The notes below the pieces were generated by a model. That model was not told the DNA's origin and did not search any database. It saw only the letters and a list, made by a program, of their open reading frames with translations. A stretch of 43,676 bases of DNA from a virus, in IMG/VR virus record IMGVR_UViG_3300048592_000487, positions 1-43,676 of that record. The stretch is one strand, 5' to 3'. Below, one piece after another: positions 6,334-43,676 of this stretch (the stretch's first letter is position 1; every line of letters starts with the position of its first letter). The translations under genes and the position numbers were made by a program.

Positions 6334-8814
6334 ATGGCCGAGACGACGCTCGCCCCCCGCATTTGCACGACGAACTGGCGCTCGCCCGAGATCATGGTCG
6401 AGTTGCCCAGTGGCAAGTACCTCGCGCGCACCGCGCAAAAGTTGGTGCTGCTTGATCTGGATGCCGTGCCGGAAGTGCTCGGCTCGGAGACGACCCACTT
6501 TGACGCGACCACGCTGCAAGACACGACCGGCACGCTGCTGTCTGCGCGCGGTGGCGCGGTCAATCCGCTCGACGCTTACCTGACATCGCACGGCCTGCTG
6601 ATGGCGGTGCAGGCTGGCGACAACAAGTTTTTCCTCTACAAATCGGTGGATGGTGGCGTGAGCTGGGGCAACAACGCGCCGAGCTACAACAACCTCCAGC
6701 CCGTCGATCGAATCGGCTACTACAACGGCACGCTCGCCACCGGCACGGACGAGCAAAAACACACCGCGTGGATTGGTCTGCTGCCGCACCGCGGGATTGC
6801 CGAGCGCACGACCACGCGCACACTGTACATGGCCGAGTATCGCCAGTCAGGCGACGCCAACATCAACACCGCAGGCGCGTTCAATTTCACCAACGGTGAC
6901 CAAATCCTGCTTAAGCGCAGCACCAACGGCGGCGACTCGTGGCAGATCGTGTGGGAGCACAACACTGTCAATCAGGCTGCGGGGACGGCAAATCTGCGCA
7001 TCCGCCACTTCCACAACATCTACTACCACAAGGGCCGCGACCTGCTGCTGATCGGCTACGGCGACCGGCAGTGGGATTCCGGCTACATCGTGTGGGAGCC
7101 GGACGCCGCGTGGCCTGCCAATAACTGCACGATCCCCGAGCTTTACGCCACCCCCGGATTTTCCGGCAAGGGCGGCGGCATGGCGATCTACAACGCCACC
7201 GACTTCATCGAAATCCCCGGCTCGGACTGGGTGATCCACGTCACAGACGGCAACATGGTCGGCGGCGGCACGCAGGGCATTCACCGATTCCGTTTGTCTG
7301 ACGCTAGCAACACTTTCCATAACGTGTATGCCATGCCGGGCGGCACCTCGTCGGGGCGGCTGATGAGCTACGGCACGCGCCTGCCTGACGGCACGCTCTG
7401 CGCGGTCGAGTACGGCGATGTGAACAACCCGATCAGTGCGCCGGAAACCTACCTCTACACCTCGGCTGGCGAGGGCGAGCAATGGAAGCGCGTGGCCGTC
7501 GTGAAGATGGACGACGGCATGGATGTGTCGAGTTTCGGACCGAAAAACCTGTTCGCGGATTCTCGCGGTCGCCTGATCTGGGTGGCGCGCATGGCGGGCT
7601 CGAAATCGCCGGTTCTCGGCAATTCGTGCTCGATCATCGCAGGGCGTTTCGGGCTACATGGCGTCAATGACGACGATGACATCCTGCACCCGGTCTGGTT
7701 CGTAGATTCCAACTCCGCGAACAAGGTCGATTCGCGCACGGGGCGCAACGATCAGGGGTGCTACCCGAACATGCCCTATGCGACTGTGCGCGGCTGCATG
7801 TCGGGCGGCGCGTCACTGACTCAAGCGGGCGGGCGCATCCAGTGCGGTCGCAACCACTCCGAGACTGTGGCGAACTGGATCGTCTCGACGCAGAACCCGA
7901 ACCTTTCTTTCCCCGACATCATCCACGACGGCTCGACGCAAGTCTGCGGCTGGGGCATGGACCTCTGCACGCTCGCGCCGGACGCTGCGGCGACCTACGT
8001 TATCCAGCACTCGGATAACGTCATGATGGCGAACTACAAGGACTTGACGCTGCTGCACAACGCGACGAACACGACGCGGATTTTCGGCGGCACGGTGCCC
8101 ACGCGCCCGATCAAGATGCACCGCGTGCGCATTGGGTCTCGTACTGCGCCGCGCAAGGCCGGCCGATTCCTTGTCACGCCGGGTTTGCCGTATGAGCAAT
8201 ACGACTGCGAGGTGCTTGCCCAGATCGGCGACGGCACGACGCAGGAGTACCCGATGTACTGCACCAACCCGACGCGAACCATGAAGGCGGTCAATACACT
8301 GTTCTGGGGTGGCTCGCGCTTGTACTCGGAAACCGGATGCACCTGGACGCTCCATCATTGCGAAATGATCGGGCAGTGGGGCAGTCCGATCCATTTAAAC
8401 AACGCCGGCACTTACACGCTCGACATCCGCAACAACGTTTTCGAGCGCGCGGGAGCGAGTGGGCCGAACGTCCCCGCGATCTGGAACGGCTCCGGTGCCG
8501 ACCTGGGCGACGCGATCCGCAACAACCAGACCGTGAGCAGCTACACGGCGATGATCGGCGGCACGGCAGGCACGACGCCAGTCGCACCGCCTGAGCTGCG
8601 CGCAGTGCCCCGCAGTTTTGCCGGCGCAGCGATGCTGCCGCGCATCGAGTCTGCCAGTGACGACATCCGCCGACTCAAACGCCCGTCGCTGACGGCGGCA
8701 GGGCGGTATGGTGGCGTTGAGGCGGTCGCCTCGTCTGGTGGTGGCGGTGCCTCAGGGCTGCAAGTGGGTGTGCTCGCGCTTCAGGTGGCGCCGGGCGTGG
8801 TGCTGCCGCTCTGA
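6334..8814 (+). CDS. Tail spike: sialidase-like propeller plus beta-helix
   Basis: An 826-residue probable receptor-binding or glycan-cleaving spike with two modules. Residues about 1-440 resemble a sialidase/BNR propeller. They carry clear Asp-boxes SVDGGVSW (104-111) and STNGGDSW (near 196-203) and a weaker one near 376. From about 450, FVDSNSANK...DQGCYPNMPYATVRGC looks like the entry to a right-handed beta-helix, as in phage spikes with pectate-lyase fold. The C-terminal end is Gly-rich with a hydrophobic tip (SGGGGASGLQVGVLALQV). I did not identify catalytic residues. The position between portal and capsid genes is unusual for a spike and supports insertion. Confidence 0.8.
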   Translation: MAETTLAPRICTTNWRSPEIMVELPSGKYLARTAQKLVLLDLDAVPEVLGSETTHFDATTLQDTTGTLLSARGGAVNPLDAYLTSHGLLMAVQAGDNKFFLYKSVDGGVSWGNNAPSYNNLQPVDRIGYYNGTLATGTDEQKHTAWIGLLPHRGIAERTTTRTLYMAEYRQSGDANINTAGAFNFTNGDQILLKRSTNGGDSWQIVWEHNTVNQAAGTANLRIRHFHNIYYHKGRDLLLIGYGDRQWDSGYIVWEPDAAWPANNCTIPELYATPGFSGKGGGMAIYNATDFIEIPGSDWVIHVTDGNMVGGGTQGIHRFRLSDASNTFHNVYAMPGGTSSGRLMSYGTRLPDGTLCAVEYGDVNNPISAPETYLYTSAGEGEQWKRVAVVKMDDGMDVSSFGPKNLFADSRGRLIWVARMAGSKSPVLGNSCSIIAGRFGLHGVNDDDDILHPVWFVDSNSANKVDSRTGRNDQGCYPNMPYATVRGCMSGGASLTQAGGRIQCGRNHSETVANWIVSTQNPNLSFPDIIHDGSTQVCGWGMDLCTLAPDAAATYVIQHSDNVMMANYKDLTLLHNATNTTRIFGGTVPTRPIKMHRVRIGSRTAPRKAGRFLVTPGLPYEQYDCEVLAQIGDGTTQEYPMYCTNPTRTMKAVNTLFWGGSRLYSETGCTWTLHHCEMIGQWGSPIHLNNAGTYTLDIRNNVFERAGASGPNVPAIWNGSGADLGDAIRNNQTVSSYTAMIGGTAGTTPVAPPELRAVPRSFAGAAMLPRIESASDDIRRLKRPSLTAAGRYGGVEAVASSGGGGASGLQVGVLALQVAPGVVLPL

Positions 8815-27370: not shown

Positions 27371-28480
27371 ATGGCATCGAAGCGCAAGAAGGGTGCGCGG
27401 TGGGAGTTCGTGATCAAGCGGGCGGGGCTGCTCGAGCGGCCGGTCTATCTCACCTTCGACACCGAGGAAGAGGGCGATCGGTTCTGCCGCAACGTCGAAG
27501 CACTGCTCGACCAGGGCATCGTCCCGCACGACATCCGCCCAGAGTCGAAGCCGGCCACGCTCGGCAGCGTGATCCGCGCGTACATGACCGAGGCGCACCC
27601 GTCCGGCAAGGACCTGGAGGTGCTCAGCACGGTGCTCGGCGCCAAGGGCGCGACCGCGGTGCTCAAGATCGACGCGCGGTGGGTGGATGGGTGGATTGCC
27701 GAAATGAAGCATGTCGAGAAGCTCGCGCCCGCCACCATCCGCGCCAAGATCGGCGCCACCGCGCGGGCCTGCGACTGGGCAATCCGGCGCAAGCTGATCG
27801 CGCTGCCCGACCATCCGTTCCGCACGCTGCCGGACGGCTACGCGACCTACAACGCGACCGACGCGGCGCTGGCCGGCGGTGTCCGGCAGGATGTGGAGCG
27901 CGACCGGCGCCTCGAGGCGGACGAAGAGCCGCGCATTCGGGCGGCGATCCTGGCCGGCGTGCTGCCGCGCAAGCAGCGCCCGCGGGTGCTCGAGCATCCC
28001 GCCGAGCTGCTCGCCGACTTCGACCTCGCGCTGGAGACCGGCATGCGGATGCGCGAGCGCTACACGCTGAGCTGCGACCAAGTCGATCTGCGCGGCCGTC
28101 AGATCGTGCTCGACAAGACCAAAAACGGCGACAGCCGGGAAGTGCCGCTGTCGTCTGTGGCGTTGCGGGTGGTGGGCGATCAGCTCGCACGGCGCCGCGG
28201 CGAACAGTGGCTATGGCCGTGGTTCGACGGCGACTTCCGGCCCTACGCGCTCAAGATGCGGTCGAACTGGATGAGCAAGCTGTACGCCGACGTTTTTGAG
28301 GCAGCGGGCTGCCCGGATCTGCGCGAGCATGATCTGCGGCATGAGGCGACGTCGCGGTTCTTCGAGCGGACGAGCCTGCCAGCCGAGGCGATCATGAAGA
28401 TCACCGGCCACCGCACGCACAAGATGGTGATGCGCTACCTACGCCTGCGCGGCTCGGCGCTGGCGGCGCATTTGTGGTGA
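27371..28480 (+). CDS. int: Phage integrase (tyrosine recombinase)
   Basis: A 369-residue integrase. Catalytic residues are visible: Arg in LETGMRMRERYTL, Lys in DKTKNGDSREVPL, His and Arg in HDLRHEATSRF, His in GHRTHKMVMRYL and the Tyr nucleophile in the same motif. The N-terminal part (about 1-60) should bind arm sites. The core-binding domain lies at about 65-165. The gene lies 160 nt from the tRNA-Val-type attP, which it should use. Its last 42 nt overlap the excisionase gene on the opposite strand, so int and xis transcripts are antisense there. Confidence 0.95.
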   Translation: MASKRKKGARWEFVIKRAGLLERPVYLTFDTEEEGDRFCRNVEALLDQGIVPHDIRPESKPATLGSVIRAYMTEAHPSGKDLEVLSTVLGAKGATAVLKIDARWVDGWIAEMKHVEKLAPATIRAKIGATARACDWAIRRKLIALPDHPFRTLPDGYATYNATDAALAGGVRQDVERDRRLEADEEPRIRAAILAGVLPRKQRPRVLEHPAELLADFDLALETGMRMRERYTLSCDQVDLRGRQIVLDKTKNGDSREVPLSSVALRVVGDQLARRRGEQWLWPWFDGDFRPYALKMRSNWMSKLYADVFEAAGCPDLREHDLRHEATSRFFERTSLPAEAIMKITGHRTHKMVMRYLRLRGSALAAHLW

Positions 28481-30421: not shown

Positions 30422-30598
30422 TCAGATTGCTCCTTGTGTCTTCGCCGCAAACCAGCCGCACGGCGCGTGCATCGGATGCGGCCCGCTCGGATGCTCGCAG
30501 CGGTCGTATCGCTCGACGCGCTGGCCCTGAGTGATGCTCACCAGCGCGACGTGACCGCAGGCGCGGCACGTGGGTGGGGCTGTGGTCTGTTGGTTCAT
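30422..30598 (-). CDS. Small Zn-ribbon-like protein
   Basis: A 58-residue protein with CRACGH near the N-terminus and a later CEHPSGPH...HAPCGW block, giving four Cys that could bind one zinc. It overlaps the methyltransferase stop by 4 nt (ATGA). Small zinc-ribbon proteins are frequent in phage early operons, and no specific role is visible. Confidence 0.6.
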   Translation of the reverse strand: MNQQTTAPPTCRACGHVALVSITQGQRVERYDRCEHPSGPHPMHAPCGWFAAKTQGAI

Positions 30599-31995
30599 GC
30601 GGCCTCCAGTGCCCGCAGCTCGCGGGCGTTGAGTGTCATCAGCTCGGGCACGTTGGCACGCGCCAGCGCGGCAGCGAGCGGCGGGCTCACGCTGTTGCCG
30701 CACATGCGCACCTGGGCGCGTTTGGGCAGCGGCTTGCCGTTGATCGTCGGGGCGATCTGGTACGACTCGGGGAAGCCCTGGGCGCGGTAGAGCTCGCGCG
30801 GCTCGAGCATGCGCATGCCGATGTCGGCGATGCGGCATTGCTGCTGCCCGACCGTGACCAGGCCGAAGCGGTCGACGGTGGGGATGGTGTGCAGCGGGTC
30901 GCCGATGTTCTGGTCCTGCCCGCCCTCGCCGTAGTACTTGGTCAGGAAGGCGCACACCAGGGCGTGGTGGTCCTGGGTGGTGATCGTGTGCATGGGCTCG
31001 GTCAGCGGTGCGCCGGGGCCGGTGTAGTTGCCGCCGAAGTGCTTGGCGAGGAATGCGGTGACGAGGGCGTGCTTCTGGCTGCCGACGAGCGTTCCAATCG
31101 GCTTGTGCAGATCGAGCGCCCGCGGCGCCTGGCCTTCACGCTCGCCGTAGCCGGTCTGGACCATCGTCGGCGCCGCCAGCCCATCTGCAGTCTCGACCAC
31201 GAACGGCCGCTTGGCCTCGATCACATACCGCTGCACCCCGCGGGCAATGCGCCGCATCGTGGCCTCGGCCAGCGGGCGATCGCGCTCGAAGATGCTCGGT
31301 GTGGGGATGCTCCAGTCGATGCACTCGGCAGCCGTGCGCCAGGGCTTGAGCGCGCGCGACTTGACGCCGGTCGAGCCCGGGGCGCCGTGCGTCGGCGCTG
31401 GCCAGGCGATCGGCTTGCCGTCGCAACGCGCGATGAGGAACAACCGCTTACGCGTGGTCGGGGCGCCGTAGTCGCAGGCGCGCAGCTCGCGCCACTCGAC
31501 GGCGTAGCCTTGCTCCTGCAACTGATGCACGAATCCGCGGAAGGTATCGCCGCGGCGCGCCGGGCAGGGCGTGCCGTCCTCGAGCAGCGGCCCCCACGTC
31601 TGGAACTCTTCGACGTTCTCGAGGATGATCACCCGCGGCCTCACCAGCGCCGCCCAGCGCACCGCCACCCACGCGAGGCCCCGGATGCGCTTGTCGCGCG
31701 GCTTGCCGCCCTTGGCCTTGGAGAAGTGCTTGCAGTCCGGGCTGAACCACGCCAGGCCAACCGGGCGCCCCTGGGTGACGGCGAGCGGGTCGATGTCCCA
31801 CACCGATTCGCAGTGGTGCGCCGTCTGCGGGTGGTTGAGCGCGTGCATGGCCACGGCCTCTGGGTCGTGGTTGATGGCGATGTCGACGTGACGACCGAGC
31901 GCAAGCTCGATGCCCGTCGATGCGCCGCCTCCGCCTGCGAAGTTGTCGATGATGAGTTCGCGCGAAAGGTCGAGGATGAATTGGTCGCGGATCAT
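30595..31995 (-). CDS. C5 cytosine-specific DNA methyltransferase
   Basis: A 466-residue DNA cytosine-5 methyltransferase. Motif I (SAM) is IIDNFAGGGGASTGIE (15-30). The motif IV loop is SPDCKHFSKAKGG with nucleophile Cys88, where PDC replaces the usual PPC. Motif VI is ENVEEF (126-131), motif VIII TTRKRLFLIAR and motif X CGNSVSPPLA near 432. The target-recognition region at about 220-420 is large. No matching restriction enzyme is next to it, though an HNH gene is in the same operon. It probably protects phage DNA from host restriction. Confidence 0.95.
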   Translation of the reverse strand: MIRDQFILDLSRELIIDNFAGGGGASTGIELALGRHVDIAINHDPEAVAMHALNHPQTAHHCESVWDIDPLAVTQGRPVGLAWFSPDCKHFSKAKGGKPRDKRIRGLAWVAVRWAALVRPRVIILENVEEFQTWGPLLEDGTPCPARRGDTFRGFVHQLQEQGYAVEWRELRACDYGAPTTRKRLFLIARCDGKPIAWPAPTHGAPGSTGVKSRALKPWRTAAECIDWSIPTPSIFERDRPLAEATMRRIARGVQRYVIEAKRPFVVETADGLAAPTMVQTGYGEREGQAPRALDLHKPIGTLVGSQKHALVTAFLAKHFGGNYTGPGAPLTEPMHTITTQDHHALVCAFLTKYYGEGGQDQNIGDPLHTIPTVDRFGLVTVGQQQCRIADIGMRMLEPRELYRAQGFPESYQIAPTINGKPLPKRAQVRMCGNSVSPPLAAALARANVPELMTLNARELRALEAA

Positions 31996-36635: not shown

Positions 36636-37541
36636 CTATGCGGCGTCTTTCAGCAGGATCCGGTCAGCTGCAATCTGGTGGGTTGGGCAGGCCTCGACGC
36701 GCATCTCGTGCTTGTCGGCAAACTCTTCGAGAAGCGCGAACGCGCGGTGGGCCTCGCGGATCATGCGCTCGCTGTAGCCGACGTCGGTCTCGGCGGGAAC
36801 AAAGGCCAGCAGTTCGATCTCGTGCGCGCTTCCCGCGAACAGGTCGGCCTCTTCGGCGCGCTTGCGCACCAGCTCGAGGTCGATGAGCTTGGCCTTGCTA
36901 TCCTTCAAGTGGCGCGCCAATCCGCCGCCGGGAACCAGGCGCGCAAAGCCGGCACAGTAGCGGCGCCCAAGATAGTCGATGCGGGTCTCGCGGACATGCT
37001 CGCCGGCCTTCACGGCGCGGTTGAAGTGCGTGGCCCACTCCGGGCGCCGCGCCTGTACTGCATCGCGAATCAGCCGCGACCAGCGCAGGTCTTCGGATTC
37101 ATGCTCGGTCACCGCCGTCTTGCTGTCGGGTAGGATGTCGGCGAGCGAGGCCAGGAATGCAGAGTCGGCCAGCGCGCCGCGGATCACGTCGCCCCAGTGG
37201 CGTCCATGCGCCCAGCGCACTTCGCCCGGGCTGACGCCAGACAGCGGCGAGCGCCATGTCTGCAGCCACTTGCCGGCCTGCATGTGCGCCGTCAGGCTAC
37301 GCTCGATGAACTCGACCAAGCGCTGCACGTTTCCCGCCTTGCTGCCCAGAAAGCACGCCCAAGCCTCCATGCTGGCGGCTGGCTGGAGACGCCATTCGCC
37401 TTCAGTGGTGCGGGCGGCCACGAGCAGGGCGATGCGCTCGCCCGAGCCAATGATAGGCTCCCAGTACACCGGCATCCAGTGGGCGCCGAAGTCTGGCAGG
37501 AGCGGAAAGCCTTTGGAGTCGAGCGGTATGGGTGCGTTCAC
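36636..37541 (-). CDS. Partner of HipA-like kinase, lysogeny operon
   Basis: A 301-residue protein I cannot firmly assign. The N-terminal region reads MPVYWEPIIGSGERIALLVA then ARTTEGEWRLQPA. From memory this resembles uncharacterised proteins encoded beside HipA-like kinases, possibly DUF3037-related. The rest is helical with charged ends (ERMIREAHRAFALLEEFADK). It overlaps the kinase stop by 4 nt (ATGA) and is followed 20 nt later by a terminator, so it is the last gene of the repressor transcript. Substrate, inhibitor or effector of the kinase are all possible. Confidence 0.65.
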   Translation of the reverse strand: MNAPIPLDSKGFPLLPDFGAHWMPVYWEPIIGSGERIALLVAARTTEGEWRLQPAASMEAWACFLGSKAGNVQRLVEFIERSLTAHMQAGKWLQTWRSPLSGVSPGEVRWAHGRHWGDVIRGALADSAFLASLADILPDSKTAVTEHESEDLRWSRLIRDAVQARRPEWATHFNRAVKAGEHVRETRIDYLGRRYCAGFARLVPGGGLARHLKDSKAKLIDLELVRKRAEEADLFAGSAHEIELLAFVPAETDVGYSERMIREAHRAFALLEEFADKHEMRVEACPTHQIAADRILLKDAA

Positions 37542-38335
37542 GGCCTGTCGAGCTGGAGGGTGATTTGCTGATGGTCTCGTGCCCGCTTGCGCAGTAAGCC
37601 TGCTGCGTTGGCAATGCGGGACTCGATTAACCGTAGCACATCATCCGTCCAATTCGAAGCGCCGATTCGGCTTCCGAGGTCCTCGGGCGCCAGCGCGCGT
37701 AGGTCGATCAGGCGCCATTGATCCACCAACTCCTGCGCGGCCTTTTCGAGCCTGGCGGCTTCGATTCGCGGGCCAAAGTGCGCCGCGAGCCGCTCGGCCA
37801 GCTGGTTCTGTACGGTCTCGTGGGGCGTGACCGGGCGCAGCGGGTGGCGCATCGGCCCGCCCAGTGCAAAGTCGTGATCGATGGGCACGAAGGCCTCGTC
37901 GCCGTCCCACAGCAGGTTGCCGGCGTGGCGGTCGATATTGGCGATTGCTTCGTCCAGAATGCAGCATGCGCGCAGATTGGGCCATGCCATCAGCGCCTCC
38001 TGCACCGCCACGTCGTCGCCGTCCTCAATCCACTGTCGCATCGAGCGGTTGTCGACTTCTTCGAGGCCGAACAGCGGCAGGCCGTCCGCCTTGCCGAGTC
38101 GCAACTTAGGGTCGCTCACCAGCAGCGGGCGCGGCGCCCCCAGGCCGCAGGCGCGCGCGAGCAGGCTCCCCACGCATTCGGCCAGCAGCGCGGCCGGCCC
38201 CAGTTGTTTGAGGTAGACGCCGACAGACTCGCCCTCATCGGTGAGCGCCCGCGCGCGCCACACCCGATTGAGTTGTCCGGCGCGCACCATGACCGGTTCG
38301 CTGATGATCGTCGCGAGGCCGAGTCGGTTGCTCAT
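37538..38335 (-). CDS. HipA-like protein kinase, lysogeny operon
   Basis: A 265-residue kinase-fold protein, shorter than E. coli HipA (about 440). A VGVYLKQLG strand gives candidate Lys43, with Glu53 in the next helix. The catalytic loop NIDRHAGNLL has Asp135 and Asn140, and metal-binding IDHDFALGG follows (Asp153 and Asp155). This order fits the HipA/PI3-4-kinase-like fold. The gene overlaps the repressor stop by 4 nt, so it should be expressed in lysogens. A role in growth arrest, superinfection exclusion or phage defence is inferred from that placement, not shown. Confidence 0.75.
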   Translation of the reverse strand: MSNRLGLATIISEPVMVRAGQLNRVWRARALTDEGESVGVYLKQLGPAALLAECVGSLLARACGLGAPRPLLVSDPKLRLGKADGLPLFGLEEVDNRSMRQWIEDGDDVAVQEALMAWPNLRACCILDEAIANIDRHAGNLLWDGDEAFVPIDHDFALGGPMRHPLRPVTPHETVQNQLAERLAAHFGPRIEAARLEKAAQELVDQWRLIDLRALAPEDLGSRIGASNWTDDVLRLIESRIANAAGLLRKRARDHQQITLQLDRP

Positions 38336-39852: not shown

Positions 39853-42333
39853 ATGGCCGCACCCGAGATCGACATCGACCGCATCCCCGCCGCGCTGCGT
39901 GAGCGCGCGCAGTGGCTGGTGTGGCGATTCGTGAAGAAGGCAGGCGCGGCAAAGCCCAGCAAGATGCCGTATTACGCCAACGGCCATCTGCGTGGATGGC
40001 CGAATGGGCAGCCGCCAAAGGGGGCGGACGGTAAAAGGAAGCCGACGCCCGATCAGCCGCAGGTGGACCAGGGTGACCCCCGCGATCGTGCTGAGCTGGT
40101 GAGCTTCGATGCGGCGCTTGCCGCATTGCACGATGACCGATGGGCCGGGCTCGGCTTCGCCTTCCTGCCCGGCGACGGCCTGATCGGCATCGACCTCGAC
40201 AACGTCATCGACGCCGAGACCGGCGAGGTGCAGGAGCGTGCGGCCGGAATCATCGCGGCGTGCGACAGCTTCACCGAGCTGTCGCCCTCGGGCCGTGGCG
40301 TGCATATCTACTGCCTCGGCGAGACCAAGAGCCACAAGAGCAACGAGATCGGCGTGGAGATGTTCTGCGGCCGGCAGTTTTTCACGGTGACCGGACGCCA
40401 GTTTCCGGGGTCGCCGGATGTGGTTACGGCGATTCGTCCCGCGGTAGTCGAGCGCCTGCACCAGGTGATTGACGAGGCCCGCGGAAAGCATCGCGCAACC
40501 GGGTCGAGCTCGCCCGCGCGGCAGCCAGTCGAAGGTCAGGAGGAGGGGGGGCTAGAGGAACGTTCGTTCTTCGCCCGGGTGAATTCCAAGGCGCTGCACA
40601 ACCTGGCCGCATGGGTTCCGGCGCTGCTGCCGAAAGCGCAGCCGTACAAGGACGGGTTCCGCATCAGCTCTGCCGACCTTGGGCGGGACCTTCAGGAAGA
40701 CCTGTCGATGGTGCCCGAGGGCATCTTCGACTTCGGGACCGAGTGCGGCAAAACGGCGATCGATCTTGTTCTTGAGTGGGGCGCCCCGTCGAAGCCGCTG
40801 GAGGCTGCCGAGTGGCTTTGCGCCCGCCTGGGTATCGACCCCGCAAGCATCGGCGGAAAGCGCAAGCGCGCCCGCAAAGCGGCTCCCACACCCTCGAGCA
40901 GGGGCGCAGCCGAGCCGAGCATGCAAGCACCGTCCGCCTCGATGGATGAGCCGCCCGAGTGGGTCATGGACGGCCCGCCCGTCGATGACCTGATGCACTT
41001 CGTGCATGACTCGGCCGACTTCAATTCCCAGTTCCGCCGCAACGACAAGGGCAACATCCAGCCGAGCCTGTACAACACGTTGCACGTGCTGGAGGGAGAT
41101 CCGCTGTGGCGCGGGGTGCTGGGGTTCAACCAGTTCAGCTACCGGATCGTCAAGCGCCGCATGCCGCCCGTGCTGCCGGCGACCGAGGGCGAGTGGGCGG
41201 ACATCGATGACGTGCGCCTGCAGGTGTATCTGACGAAGACGTACAGCTTCGAGCCCAAGAAGACCACGGTGATGGATGCCGTGATGCAGGTGGCGCACGC
41301 CGCGCCTTTCCACCCGGTGCGCGAGTATCTCGACGCGCTGGTGTGGGACGGAACGCCGCGCCTGGTCACGCTGCTGTCCGACTGCTGGGGCGCGCTTTCC
41401 ACCGCCGGCTCGGCTGCGCTCCGGCGCGAGGATCCGGGCGCGCATCGGCGCTTGGGCAAGTACCTCGAGCTGGCGGGCGTGAAGTGGCTGGTGGGCGCCG
41501 TGGCGCGCATCTACAAACCCGGCTGCAAGCTCGACACCATGCTCGTGCTCGAGGGCGGCCAGGGCGACTTCAAGTCCACGTCGATCCGCGCGCTGTTCGG
41601 CGACGAGTGGTTCAGCGACAGCAAACTGACGATCGGCGACAAGGACGCACTGGCCCAGATGCAGGGCAAGTGGGCCTACGAGATGGCCGAGATGGACGCG
41701 CACCGCAAGGCGGATGACACCGCGTTCAAGCAGTTCCTGACCACGCAGGTCGACCGGGTGCGCTGGCATTACGGCAAGCGCGCCGAGGATGTGCCGCGTC
41801 AGTGCATCTTCGTGGGGACGACCAACATGGAGCAGTACGGCAAGGACGAGACCGGCATGCGCCGCGTGTGGCCCTTCGAGGTCGGTTTCGTGGATCTGGA
41901 CAGGATCCGCAGCCAGCGCGACCAGCTGTGGGCGGAGGCGGTGTCGCTGTTCCGCCAGGGCGTGACGTGGTGGGTGGATAAGCGCGTGTTCGTGCTGGAG
42001 CCCGACGAGGAGCCGCTGATCGACCGGCCGTGGAGCGAGTTCGAGCTGTTCCAGGAGCAGGGCGACCACAGGCAGAACGTCGATGCCTGGGAGGAGCCGA
42101 TCCTGAAGTTCCTCGCCGACAACAACAAGCTGCCGTACTACACGACGGCCCAGATCATGGGCGGGGCGCTGCTGTTGGATAAGGCGCGATGGACGCCGCT
42201 GGAGCAGAAACGGGTGGCGGCCATCCTGCGCCGGCTTGGGTTCAAGACGAAGAAGGTCGGGCCGAAGAACGCGCGGGTGAATGGCTGGGTGCGCGAAGAC
42301 GACCAGGGAGAGGCCGCCGATGTGCCGATTTGA
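39853..42333 (+). CDS. Primase-polymerase and VapE-type helicase
   Basis: An 826-residue replication protein. The N-terminal primase-polymerase part shows a D-x-D motif in GLIGIDLDNVID (about 109-120) and the SPSGRGVHIYC motif (about 146-156). The C-terminal half is a VapE-type SF3-like ATPase. It has YLDALVWDGTPRL (about 493-505), P-loop EGGQGDFKST (about 566-575), acidic EMAEMDAH (near 611) and a later GMRRVWPFEV block. It is probably the initiator helicase for phage replication. The GGACACC array begins 13 nt after its stop, supporting an origin there. Confidence 0.9.
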   Translation: MAAPEIDIDRIPAALRERAQWLVWRFVKKAGAAKPSKMPYYANGHLRGWPNGQPPKGADGKRKPTPDQPQVDQGDPRDRAELVSFDAALAALHDDRWAGLGFAFLPGDGLIGIDLDNVIDAETGEVQERAAGIIAACDSFTELSPSGRGVHIYCLGETKSHKSNEIGVEMFCGRQFFTVTGRQFPGSPDVVTAIRPAVVERLHQVIDEARGKHRATGSSSPARQPVEGQEEGGLEERSFFARVNSKALHNLAAWVPALLPKAQPYKDGFRISSADLGRDLQEDLSMVPEGIFDFGTECGKTAIDLVLEWGAPSKPLEAAEWLCARLGIDPASIGGKRKRARKAAPTPSSRGAAEPSMQAPSASMDEPPEWVMDGPPVDDLMHFVHDSADFNSQFRRNDKGNIQPSLYNTLHVLEGDPLWRGVLGFNQFSYRIVKRRMPPVLPATEGEWADIDDVRLQVYLTKTYSFEPKKTTVMDAVMQVAHAAPFHPVREYLDALVWDGTPRLVTLLSDCWGALSTAGSAALRREDPGAHRRLGKYLELAGVKWLVGAVARIYKPGCKLDTMLVLEGGQGDFKSTSIRALFGDEWFSDSKLTIGDKDALAQMQGKWAYEMAEMDAHRKADDTAFKQFLTTQVDRVRWHYGKRAEDVPRQCIFVGTTNMEQYGKDETGMRRVWPFEVGFVDLDRIRSQRDQLWAEAVSLFRQGVTWWVDKRVFVLEPDEEPLIDRPWSEFELFQEQGDHRQNVDAWEEPILKFLADNNKLPYYTTAQIMGGALLLDKARWTPLEQKRVAAILRRLGFKTKKVGPKNARVNGWVREDDQGEAADVPI

Positions 42334-42345
42334 GCTCGCCGCGAA

Positions 42346-42389
42346 ATTCCAGTGGACACCGCAAACCCGCGCCGTTGCTGGTGGTGTCC
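42346..42389 (+). repeat. Left arm of perfect 44-bp inverted repeat
   Basis: Bases 42346-42389 are the exact reverse complement of 42550-42593. Each arm begins and ends with GGACACC-type units, and 160 bp separate the arms. The pair could form a large cruciform or stem-loop. Confidence 0.9.
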
Positions 42390-42549
42390 ACTGGACTGTT
42401 TCTAGTGGACACCTTGCCGGACACCGCAAAGCCAGTGCCGGCGCGGGGTTTGCCATTGGTGTCCGGGTGTCCACCAGAAAACGCAGGCTCTCTCACGCGG
42501 GCGTGCGCGCACATGCGCAACTTTTTACACACGTTTCTAGTGGACACCC

Positions 42550-42593
42550 GGACACCACCAGCAACGGCGCGGGTTTGCGGTGTCCACTGGAAT
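42550..42593 (-). repeat. Right arm of perfect 44-bp inverted repeat
   Basis: This is the matching arm of 42346-42389, identical over all 44 bases when inverted. The 160-bp interior includes an AT-richer CAACTTTTTACACACG stretch, which might be an unwinding element. Confidence 0.9.
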
Positions 42594-42652
42594 CGAAATA
42601 CGTGGACACCAAGTGGACACCGTCCTTTTCAGGTGGACACCAGGAGCCGAGC

Positions 42653-42904
42653 ATGAGCAACAAGCCGATGCGGGCCGCAATGCCCGAGATCACCGCCTTC
42701 GTGGATGCCTTCCGCGATGCCGGCCTGACCGACAACGACGCCATCAAGCGCGGGATGCAGGAGGGTGGCTTCCACGCCCGCGAGAACGGCCACGAGGTCG
42801 GCAAGCGGGCCGAGTGGGGGCAGGGCGTGACGCCAGTGCTGTCCTACGAGGCCGAGCAGCGCCTGGCGGATCTGTGGTGGCAGCGCGAACAGGGGGGCGA
42901 GTGA
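42653..42904 (+). CDS. Hypothetical early/late-junction protein
   Basis: An 83-residue protein. CAGGAG lies 6 nt before the ATG and immediately follows the last GGACACC unit, so binding to the array could affect its translation or transcription. The sequence is charged and helical (ITAFVDAFRDAGLTDNDAIK then HENG-type turn and YEAEQRLADLWWQREQG). No family is recognised. Its stop shares one base with the next ATG. Confidence 0.7.
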   Translation: MSNKPMRAAMPEITAFVDAFRDAGLTDNDAIKRGMQEGGFHARENGHEVGKRAEWGQGVTPVLSYEAEQRLADLWWQREQGGE

Positions 42905-43658: not shown

Positions 43659-43676
43659 GGTAATCGCAGCCCCGAT
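43659..43676. repeat. Right copy of 18-nt terminal direct repeat
   Basis: Identical to positions 2-19. Joining the ends gives a continuous sequence from the Z-like tail gene to terS with about 100 nt between them, the place expected for the packaging site. In the joined form a 27-codon ORF beginning ATG 43620 would overlap the Z-like stop and end near position 40, which is probably not coding. Confidence 0.8.

Follow-up and report, generated by a model that had tools for sequence, protein, structure and literature searches.

The origin of SaPIbov1 was reportedly the subject of a study by Ubeda in 2012. In PICI origins an AT-rich region is flanked by two sets of iterons, and a rep-ori cloned from a PICI replicates in E. 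coli, both according to the available part of PMC6092414. A two-sided origin of this type was called unique to phage-inducible islands in the accessible text of a 2018 paper. The pRN1 protein ORF904 combines an AEP primase, an SF3 helicase and a winged helix, and an essential stem-loop of 100 nt is located 3' of its gene; a similar stem-loop has been proposed for the Bordetella phage BIP-1 (excerpts of PMC4234260). In addition, the PER element of the S. thermophilus phage Sfi21 protects cells when present at raised copy number (excerpt of PMC6356513).

The window, by which we mean the whole stretch of 43,676 nucleotides analysed here, carries the 18-bp direct repeat GGTAATCGCAGCCCCGAT at both record ends (2-19 and 43659-43676), so that the record is probably one complete, circularised genome. 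Pfam and PHROG searches identified terminase, portal, head protease, tape measure and tail proteins as well as a phage integrase. Because virion genes and an integrase are present, the window represents a temperate tailed phage. Its minus strand also encodes a phage DNA methyltransferase (30595-31995; PHROG 5.4e-106), and a minus-strand gene adjoining the repressor region (37538-38335) gives weak HipA-like and PI3/4-kinase-like matches.

A preliminary description had reported twelve heptamers in both orientations, two exactly inverted 44-base arms, and a position directly after a primase/VapE-type gene, and all three observations were reproduced (Table 1). GGACACC is found 12 times within the 288 bp from 42354 to 42641, eight times on the plus and four times on the minus strand, where a first-order Markov model expects 0.046 copies in 319 bp; the rest of the 43,676 bases contains 4 copies with 6.2 expected. 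The arms are 100% complementary over their full length with 160 nt between them, and the stop of the primase-helicase reading frame at 42333 precedes by one base the position 42334 at which the array region had been set to begin. Two elements in the centre of the array, an A+T patch and an alternating purine-pyrimidine tract, were absent from that description.

Table 1. Features of the array region and of related genes in the window
Feature	Position	Strand	Details
AEP-primase/VapE-helicase, probable origin-binding initiator	39853..42333	+	826 aa from Met25; 850 aa from ATG 39781
Predicted C-terminal winged helix, candidate unit reader	42145..42294	+	about residues 789-838
Left unit block	42354..42472		GGACACC at 42354(+), 42383(-), 42407(+), 42419(+), 42458(-), 42466(-)
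Right unit block	42542..42641		GGACACC at 42542(+), 42550(+), 42579(-), 42604(+), 42615(+), 42635(+)
Left arm of perfect inverted repeat	42346..42389	+	44 nt
Right arm of perfect inverted repeat	42550..42593	-	44 nt
Alternating purine-pyrimidine tract CACGCGGGCGTGCGCGCACATGCGCA	42494..42519		26 bp; score 19
A+T patch, candidate melting site	42520..42539		14/20 A/T
DnaA-box-like sequence TTTTACACA	42523-42531		inside A+T patch
Small downstream gene	42653..42904	+	83 aa; ATG 11 bases after last unit
Integrase	27371-28480		14 kb from array

The array is very probably a replication origin, whose units would be bound by the C-terminal winged helix of the adjacent VapE primase-helicase. This reading, already raised in the preliminary description, is well supported by the comparison with relatives and by the predicted structure. 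GC skew changes from one sign to the other at the record ends, about 1 kb away from the array, but its polarity is the reverse of the leading-strand G excess normally seen; by the usual convention it thus gives the origin no support, and it is also confounded by gene direction.

The search for the same unit in related phages, which had been proposed earlier, was successful. Two metagenomic relatives, L001 and L002 (58 and 73% identity in the best protein segment), each carry GGACACC 11 times in the array. The order of the units (+-++--++-++) is identical in the window, L001 and L002, and so are the gaps of 29, 24, 12, 39 and 8 in the left block, and those of 8, 29 and the final 20 in the right block. 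The central gap between the blocks varies (76 in the window, 89 and 77 in L001 and L002, respectively). The third right-hand gap is 36 in the window and 35 in the two relatives, a shift of one base pair, and within this gap the window has one extra unit, the unit at 42604 being degenerate in L001 and L002. In the three-way alignment 82 of the 84 unit columns are identical compared to 110 of the 238 other columns. Across the arms the units match at 14 of 14 positions in all three phages, whereas the spacers match at all 22 positions in the window only (13 in L001 and 14 in L002, with 5.5 expected by chance). In the more distant relatives L003, L005, and L007, 24 to 26 of the 44 arm positions are complementary, and these are mostly at unit ends. 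Because units and their phase are kept and spacer complementarity is broken in the relatives, the perfect inverted repeat is particular to the window phage and is not a conserved feature. The earlier conclusion that perfect arms imply either recent duplication or strong selection therefore has to be divided: selection for complementarity does not hold as a general feature, since the relatives keep the position and orientation of the units instead, and recent duplication fits better. The arms may thus have undergone a recent gene conversion or duplication. A DNA search of the 401-bp region against phage records returned only two chance-level matches of 33 bases, and an exact-pattern search for the inner unit pairs matched one viral contig, which was already the source of L002.

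The same comparison bears on the possibility of a pRN1-like origin, in which the long inverted repeat would be extruded into a cruciform that is recognised by its structure instead of by the units. The stem-loops located 3' of similar genes in pRN1 and proposed for BIP-1 provide a precedent (PMC4234260, in the part available), and the single strand of the array has a much stronger tendency to fold than 100 shuffled versions (z -13.4). However, L001 and L002 have retained only part of the complementarity outside the units, and the same is true of the arms of L003, L005, and L007. Units and their phase are kept instead, and no conserved stem emerges. We therefore regard a stem-loop origin as very unlikely, although it is the best of the alternatives.

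For a broader comparison two sets of loci were assembled. The window protein matched 773 phage records. Both sets were drawn from the best 80 matches per scan and therefore lean to Pseudomonas, Streptococcus, and Staphylococcus; their clusters are not independent in descent. In the first set, 163 of 177 sequences had the helicase reading frame and at least 400 nt downstream (12 had no reading frame by the pattern used, and two were too short), and the 161 sequences with 700 nt downstream were grouped into 46 clusters at 90% identity. For the analyses of unit coevolution, word orientation and tract composition and for the counts of DnaA, IHF and spacer motifs, a subset of 40 clusters was used: clusters were dropped by rule if the tract score was below 18 or the tract was less than 60 nt from the gene, and L021, L103, and L173 were dropped by hand, their tract calls looking misplaced or including units. 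The second set was collected with phage proteins of Streptococcus, Paenibacillus, and Staphylococcus together with some named records, and 148 of its 163 loci formed 47 clusters, of which the representatives were scored.

Relatives at 33-40% identity have different units at the corresponding place. L003, L005, and L007 share the unit GGTTGGGA with nearly mirror-image gaps, which are 28, 35, 9, then 96 in the centre, then 9, 9, 35, 28 in L007, and 19, 35, 9, 9, then 79, then 9, 9, 35, 18, 11 in L005. The unit of L004 and L097 is TAGACAA (for L004 also given as GTAGACAA), and where the host is Pseudomonas or another genus, the most frequent words are similar to GTCCCAC, GTAGGAC or GTGGTCA. In 36 of the 40 clusters the longest word common to both sides of the centre is inverted, in three it is direct, and in one there is a tie, compared to 66 inverted, 71 direct, and 63 tied at 200 random places. 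The plan common to the distant relatives has oppositely oriented blocks on either side of a centre that holds an A+T-rich patch and an alternating tract of purines and pyrimidines. In the surveyed relatives, where sought, the array was found beside the helicase gene and on the same side as in the window. Left-block spacers of many clusters contain, between oppositely oriented units, a motif resembling AAAGCCnnGTCGTTGCTGG (42361-42382 in the window), also where the units differ. With up to four mismatches it occurs in 12/40 array regions and 3/160 controls; since the motif was derived from these very data, we treat it as no more than a lead. In Pseudomonas phage Haddon (L015), the annotation places short "hypothetical proteins" over the origin-like array (6570-6695 and 6802-6927), and these reading frames are probably spurious. 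A coevolution of the units with the C-terminal domain was also considered and rejected. The partial rank correlation of unit similarity is 0.21 with the C-terminal domain and 0.13 with the AAA+ domain, and 14 and 43 of 500 permutations, respectively, gave values as high; the signal is weak and confounded by descent, with no clear co-variation beyond general relatedness.

The protein encoded next to the array matches PF05272 (2.3e-66) and the PHROG DNA primase family (5.5e-140), and read from Met25 it fits the 826-residue protein of the preliminary description. Another reading frame of 826 residues (6334-8814), located between the portal and head-protease genes, is without Pfam or PHROG match and unrelated to the primase-helicase. 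The N-terminal half of the primase-helicase matches the AEP-type primases 6a9w, 6k9a, and 7rr3, and the helicase half matches 7pds (sequence E 1.4e-42), which we take to be SaPI1 Rep. The titles belonging to 7pds are "The structure of PriRep1 with dsDNA" and "Similar to D. nodosus vapE", and a NAR paper of 2022 is said to deal with SaPI Rep helicases. An AlphaFold2 model of residues 410-850 based on 43 aligned sequences reached a pLDDT of 88.6 and aligns to 7pds over 391 residues (Z 33.1, rmsd 6.0, 29% identity), and this match covers model residues 3-433 and includes the C-terminal domain. Lower structural matches are NrS-1 (13.0), the SaPI5 primase-helicase (12.3), poxvirus D5/E5 (up to 11.2), and papillomavirus E1 (10.4); structural neighbours were also searched with Foldseek. 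At the C-terminus the model has helices (380-387 and 397-409, fragment numbering) followed by the strands of a beta hairpin (412-417 and 424-429), which together are predicted to form a winged helix. A single-sequence model of the C-terminal 136 residues reached a pLDDT of only 41 and was discarded. In L014 and L016 the N-terminal half gives no alignment with the AEP half, yet their helicases are followed by arrays. Thus, the array goes with the helicase half of the protein.

By homology, initiation would proceed as follows. The predicted winged helix would bind the GGACACC units in the two oppositely oriented blocks, and a self-loading helicase ring would assemble on either side. Between these two rings, the 26-bp alternating tract and the 20-bp A+T patch would then open, and the helicase together with its fused primase would start forks bidirectionally. 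Unit binding, the two rings, melting, and priming are all parts of this proposal that we infer from homologous systems. More speculatively, the six plus six units of the window would match two hexamers; other lineages have other counts.

Instead of an origin, the units might form an operator array, to which Rep or a phage regulator binds and so controls the downstream genes. The last unit is close to the next start codon, 11 bases in the window and directly before the ATG in L002, and autoregulation and origin binding can coexist. The small protein encoded there has no match in PHROG or Pfam. However, a scan of 42250-42750 for sigma-70-like promoters found none, and twelve phased units around an A+T patch would be more than an operator needs, so that a purely regulatory array seems still less probable than a stem-loop origin. 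Lower again we place a site for partition, recombination or packaging. The first two had been entertained in the preliminary description and have little in their favour. Inverted repeats do occur at such sites, and the record ends with their 18-bp repeat are about 1 kb away, the terminase genes being located just past them. Against this class of sites, the surveyed relatives have the array beside the helicase gene, the integrase gene is distant, and the searched proteins, which represent part of the reading frames, include no partition gene. Least probable of all is a transcription terminator or RNA structure closing the early operon. Four terminator-like sites, with 0.5 expected in shuffles, speak for it, but inverted units produce extra hairpins in any case, conservation falls on units and gaps and not on stems, and no Rfam family matches at gathering score, the two matches with E 0.06 and 0.09 being far below.

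In the window phage the alternating tract is borderline: its score of 19 compares with 21 in another 900-nt segment of the phage and with 30 in the best of 60 dinucleotide shuffles, not all of which it beats. In 44 of the 46 clusters the tract tops every other 900-nt segment of its own locus, the exceptions being the window phage and L068 (14 vs 14), and a score of at least 18 is reached in 44/46 clusters compared to 12/457 control segments. All 60 dinucleotide shuffles are beaten in 31/46 clusters, which is a strict control because these shuffles keep the tract's own dinucleotides, and 200 single-base shuffles are beaten in 39 of 40. The tracts of the 40 clusters have a median length of 52 nt (26-80) and consist of 38.1% CG/GC, 38.8% CA-type and 9.2% TA/AT steps, compared to 20% CG/GC and 24% CA-type steps in the whole loci. 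In a profile of 43 of the 46 clusters, the first 10 nt right of the tract have an A+T content of 0.76, compared to 0.36-0.47 on its left. DnaA-like sites with up to one mismatch were counted in 18/40 array regions and 36/160 controls, and IHF-like sites in 12/40 and 18/160. Because array regions carry the A+T patch and these counts are uncorrected for composition, nothing is drawn from the excesses.

In the second set the tract passes the same test, at 500 nt, in 32 of the 47 representatives, including the named phages Javan630 (L179) and ApiWellbeing (L178). In the Streptococcus-type sequences printed out, the A+T-rich DNA is mostly left of the tract. When 9-mers common to both sets were determined (44 and 47 clusters, one mismatch), the top words were alternating or nearly so. 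One of them, CGCGCGTAT, occurs in 0.52 and 0.47 of the clusters compared to 0.07 and 0.04 of the control segments; the 30 best also include a few unit-like and A+T words (CTTGTCCCA, GCTTGTTCC, and AAAATAAAG). By score, the tract is absent from L177, which represents 42 S. aureus-type loci (8 vs 13), and from L180, L334, and L336, all among the 15 failing clusters, as well as from L335, L337-L339, and L343-L345. None of the five VapE-bearing Streptococcus satellites has the tract by score (9-10, below their controls), although L335 and L343 hold an alternating word of 11 nt. All five satellites show A+T-rich DNA, and at least three have obvious short repeats. Downstream of VapE, the S. aureus-type loci L177, L305, and L306 have a common element like GTTAGGGAGTAA and no alternating tract; perhaps this element replaces the tract functionally.

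Alternating CG/CA DNA can adopt the Z form under negative supercoiling. We speculate that the tract aids opening by absorbing negative supercoiling, perhaps as Z-DNA. Through conversion to the Z form it could tune the opening next to the A+T patch; alternatively, the tract could be bound by a protein. The window phage has a weak tract and part of the family has none, so that the idea of Z-DNA depends on the relatives. Taken further, temperate phages of Pseudomonadota and Bacillota might share one class of two-sided origin, with units varying between lineages and a Z-DNA-prone tract kept beside the A+T patch. The tract would then be a working part that stores or releases supercoiling for opening by the VapE rings, and that satellites with the same helicase family have dispensed with. 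We put this forward tentatively and consider it possible rather than probable. If the tract works structurally, origins would include a conserved element with a propensity for Z-DNA. Genes of the VapE family occur widely in phages, and their names still often refer to virulence. Reading the array as an origin assigns these genes a specific function and a site of action, and makes it possible to find the origins of many prophages that lack annotation.

Among the known systems, the PER element of Sfi21 resembles the array by description, being likewise a noncoding origin-like element in a phage replication module (PMC6356513, in the part available). The P4 alpha protein is a fusion of primase, helicase and winged helix like the window protein and binds origin repeats, but its primase is of the Toprim type and not of the AEP type, a difference taken from the description of P4 in the excerpt of PMC4234260. 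pRN1 ORF904 and BIP-1 agree with the window in that AEP primase and helicase are joined to a winged helix at the C-terminus and the essential site is located 3' of the gene; their origin, as far as this excerpt describes it, is a conserved stem-loop without iterons, whereas in the window family the units are conserved and the stems are not. The closest likeness is to SaPI and PICI, whose origin is located directly 3' of the gene for a self-loading Rep helicase (available parts of PMC6092414 and PMC7581432; 7pds, 7ola). In the window the first unit at 42354 follows the stop at 42333, six plus six units flank the centre, the short A+T-rich segment between the sets is a candidate melting region, and the helicase half aligns to 7pds over nearly its full length, including the predicted C-terminal DNA-binding domain. 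The layout is thus that of the SaPI/PICI origins and as such known. The earlier objection that an inverted layout sets the array apart from iteron origins therefore fails, because two iteron sets flanking a centre 3' of rep are the published arrangement (PMC6092414, in the part available). An alternating tract in such an origin is not described in the available parts of PMC6092414, PMC7145576, PMC7581432, PMC2647930, PMC5499656, PMC6356513, and PMC4234260. Nor was a description found in the open-licence literature, most subscription papers being outside this scope, so that its absence is unproven; we treat the tract as a new variation on the SaPI/PICI layout. Unlike the SaPI and PICI satellites, the window is a complete tailed phage with virion genes, and its units are denser and phased, with the alternating tract added. 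New would be the extension of the SaPI/PICI-like layout to full temperate phages and the alternating tract that phages of two phyla have in common while their units change.
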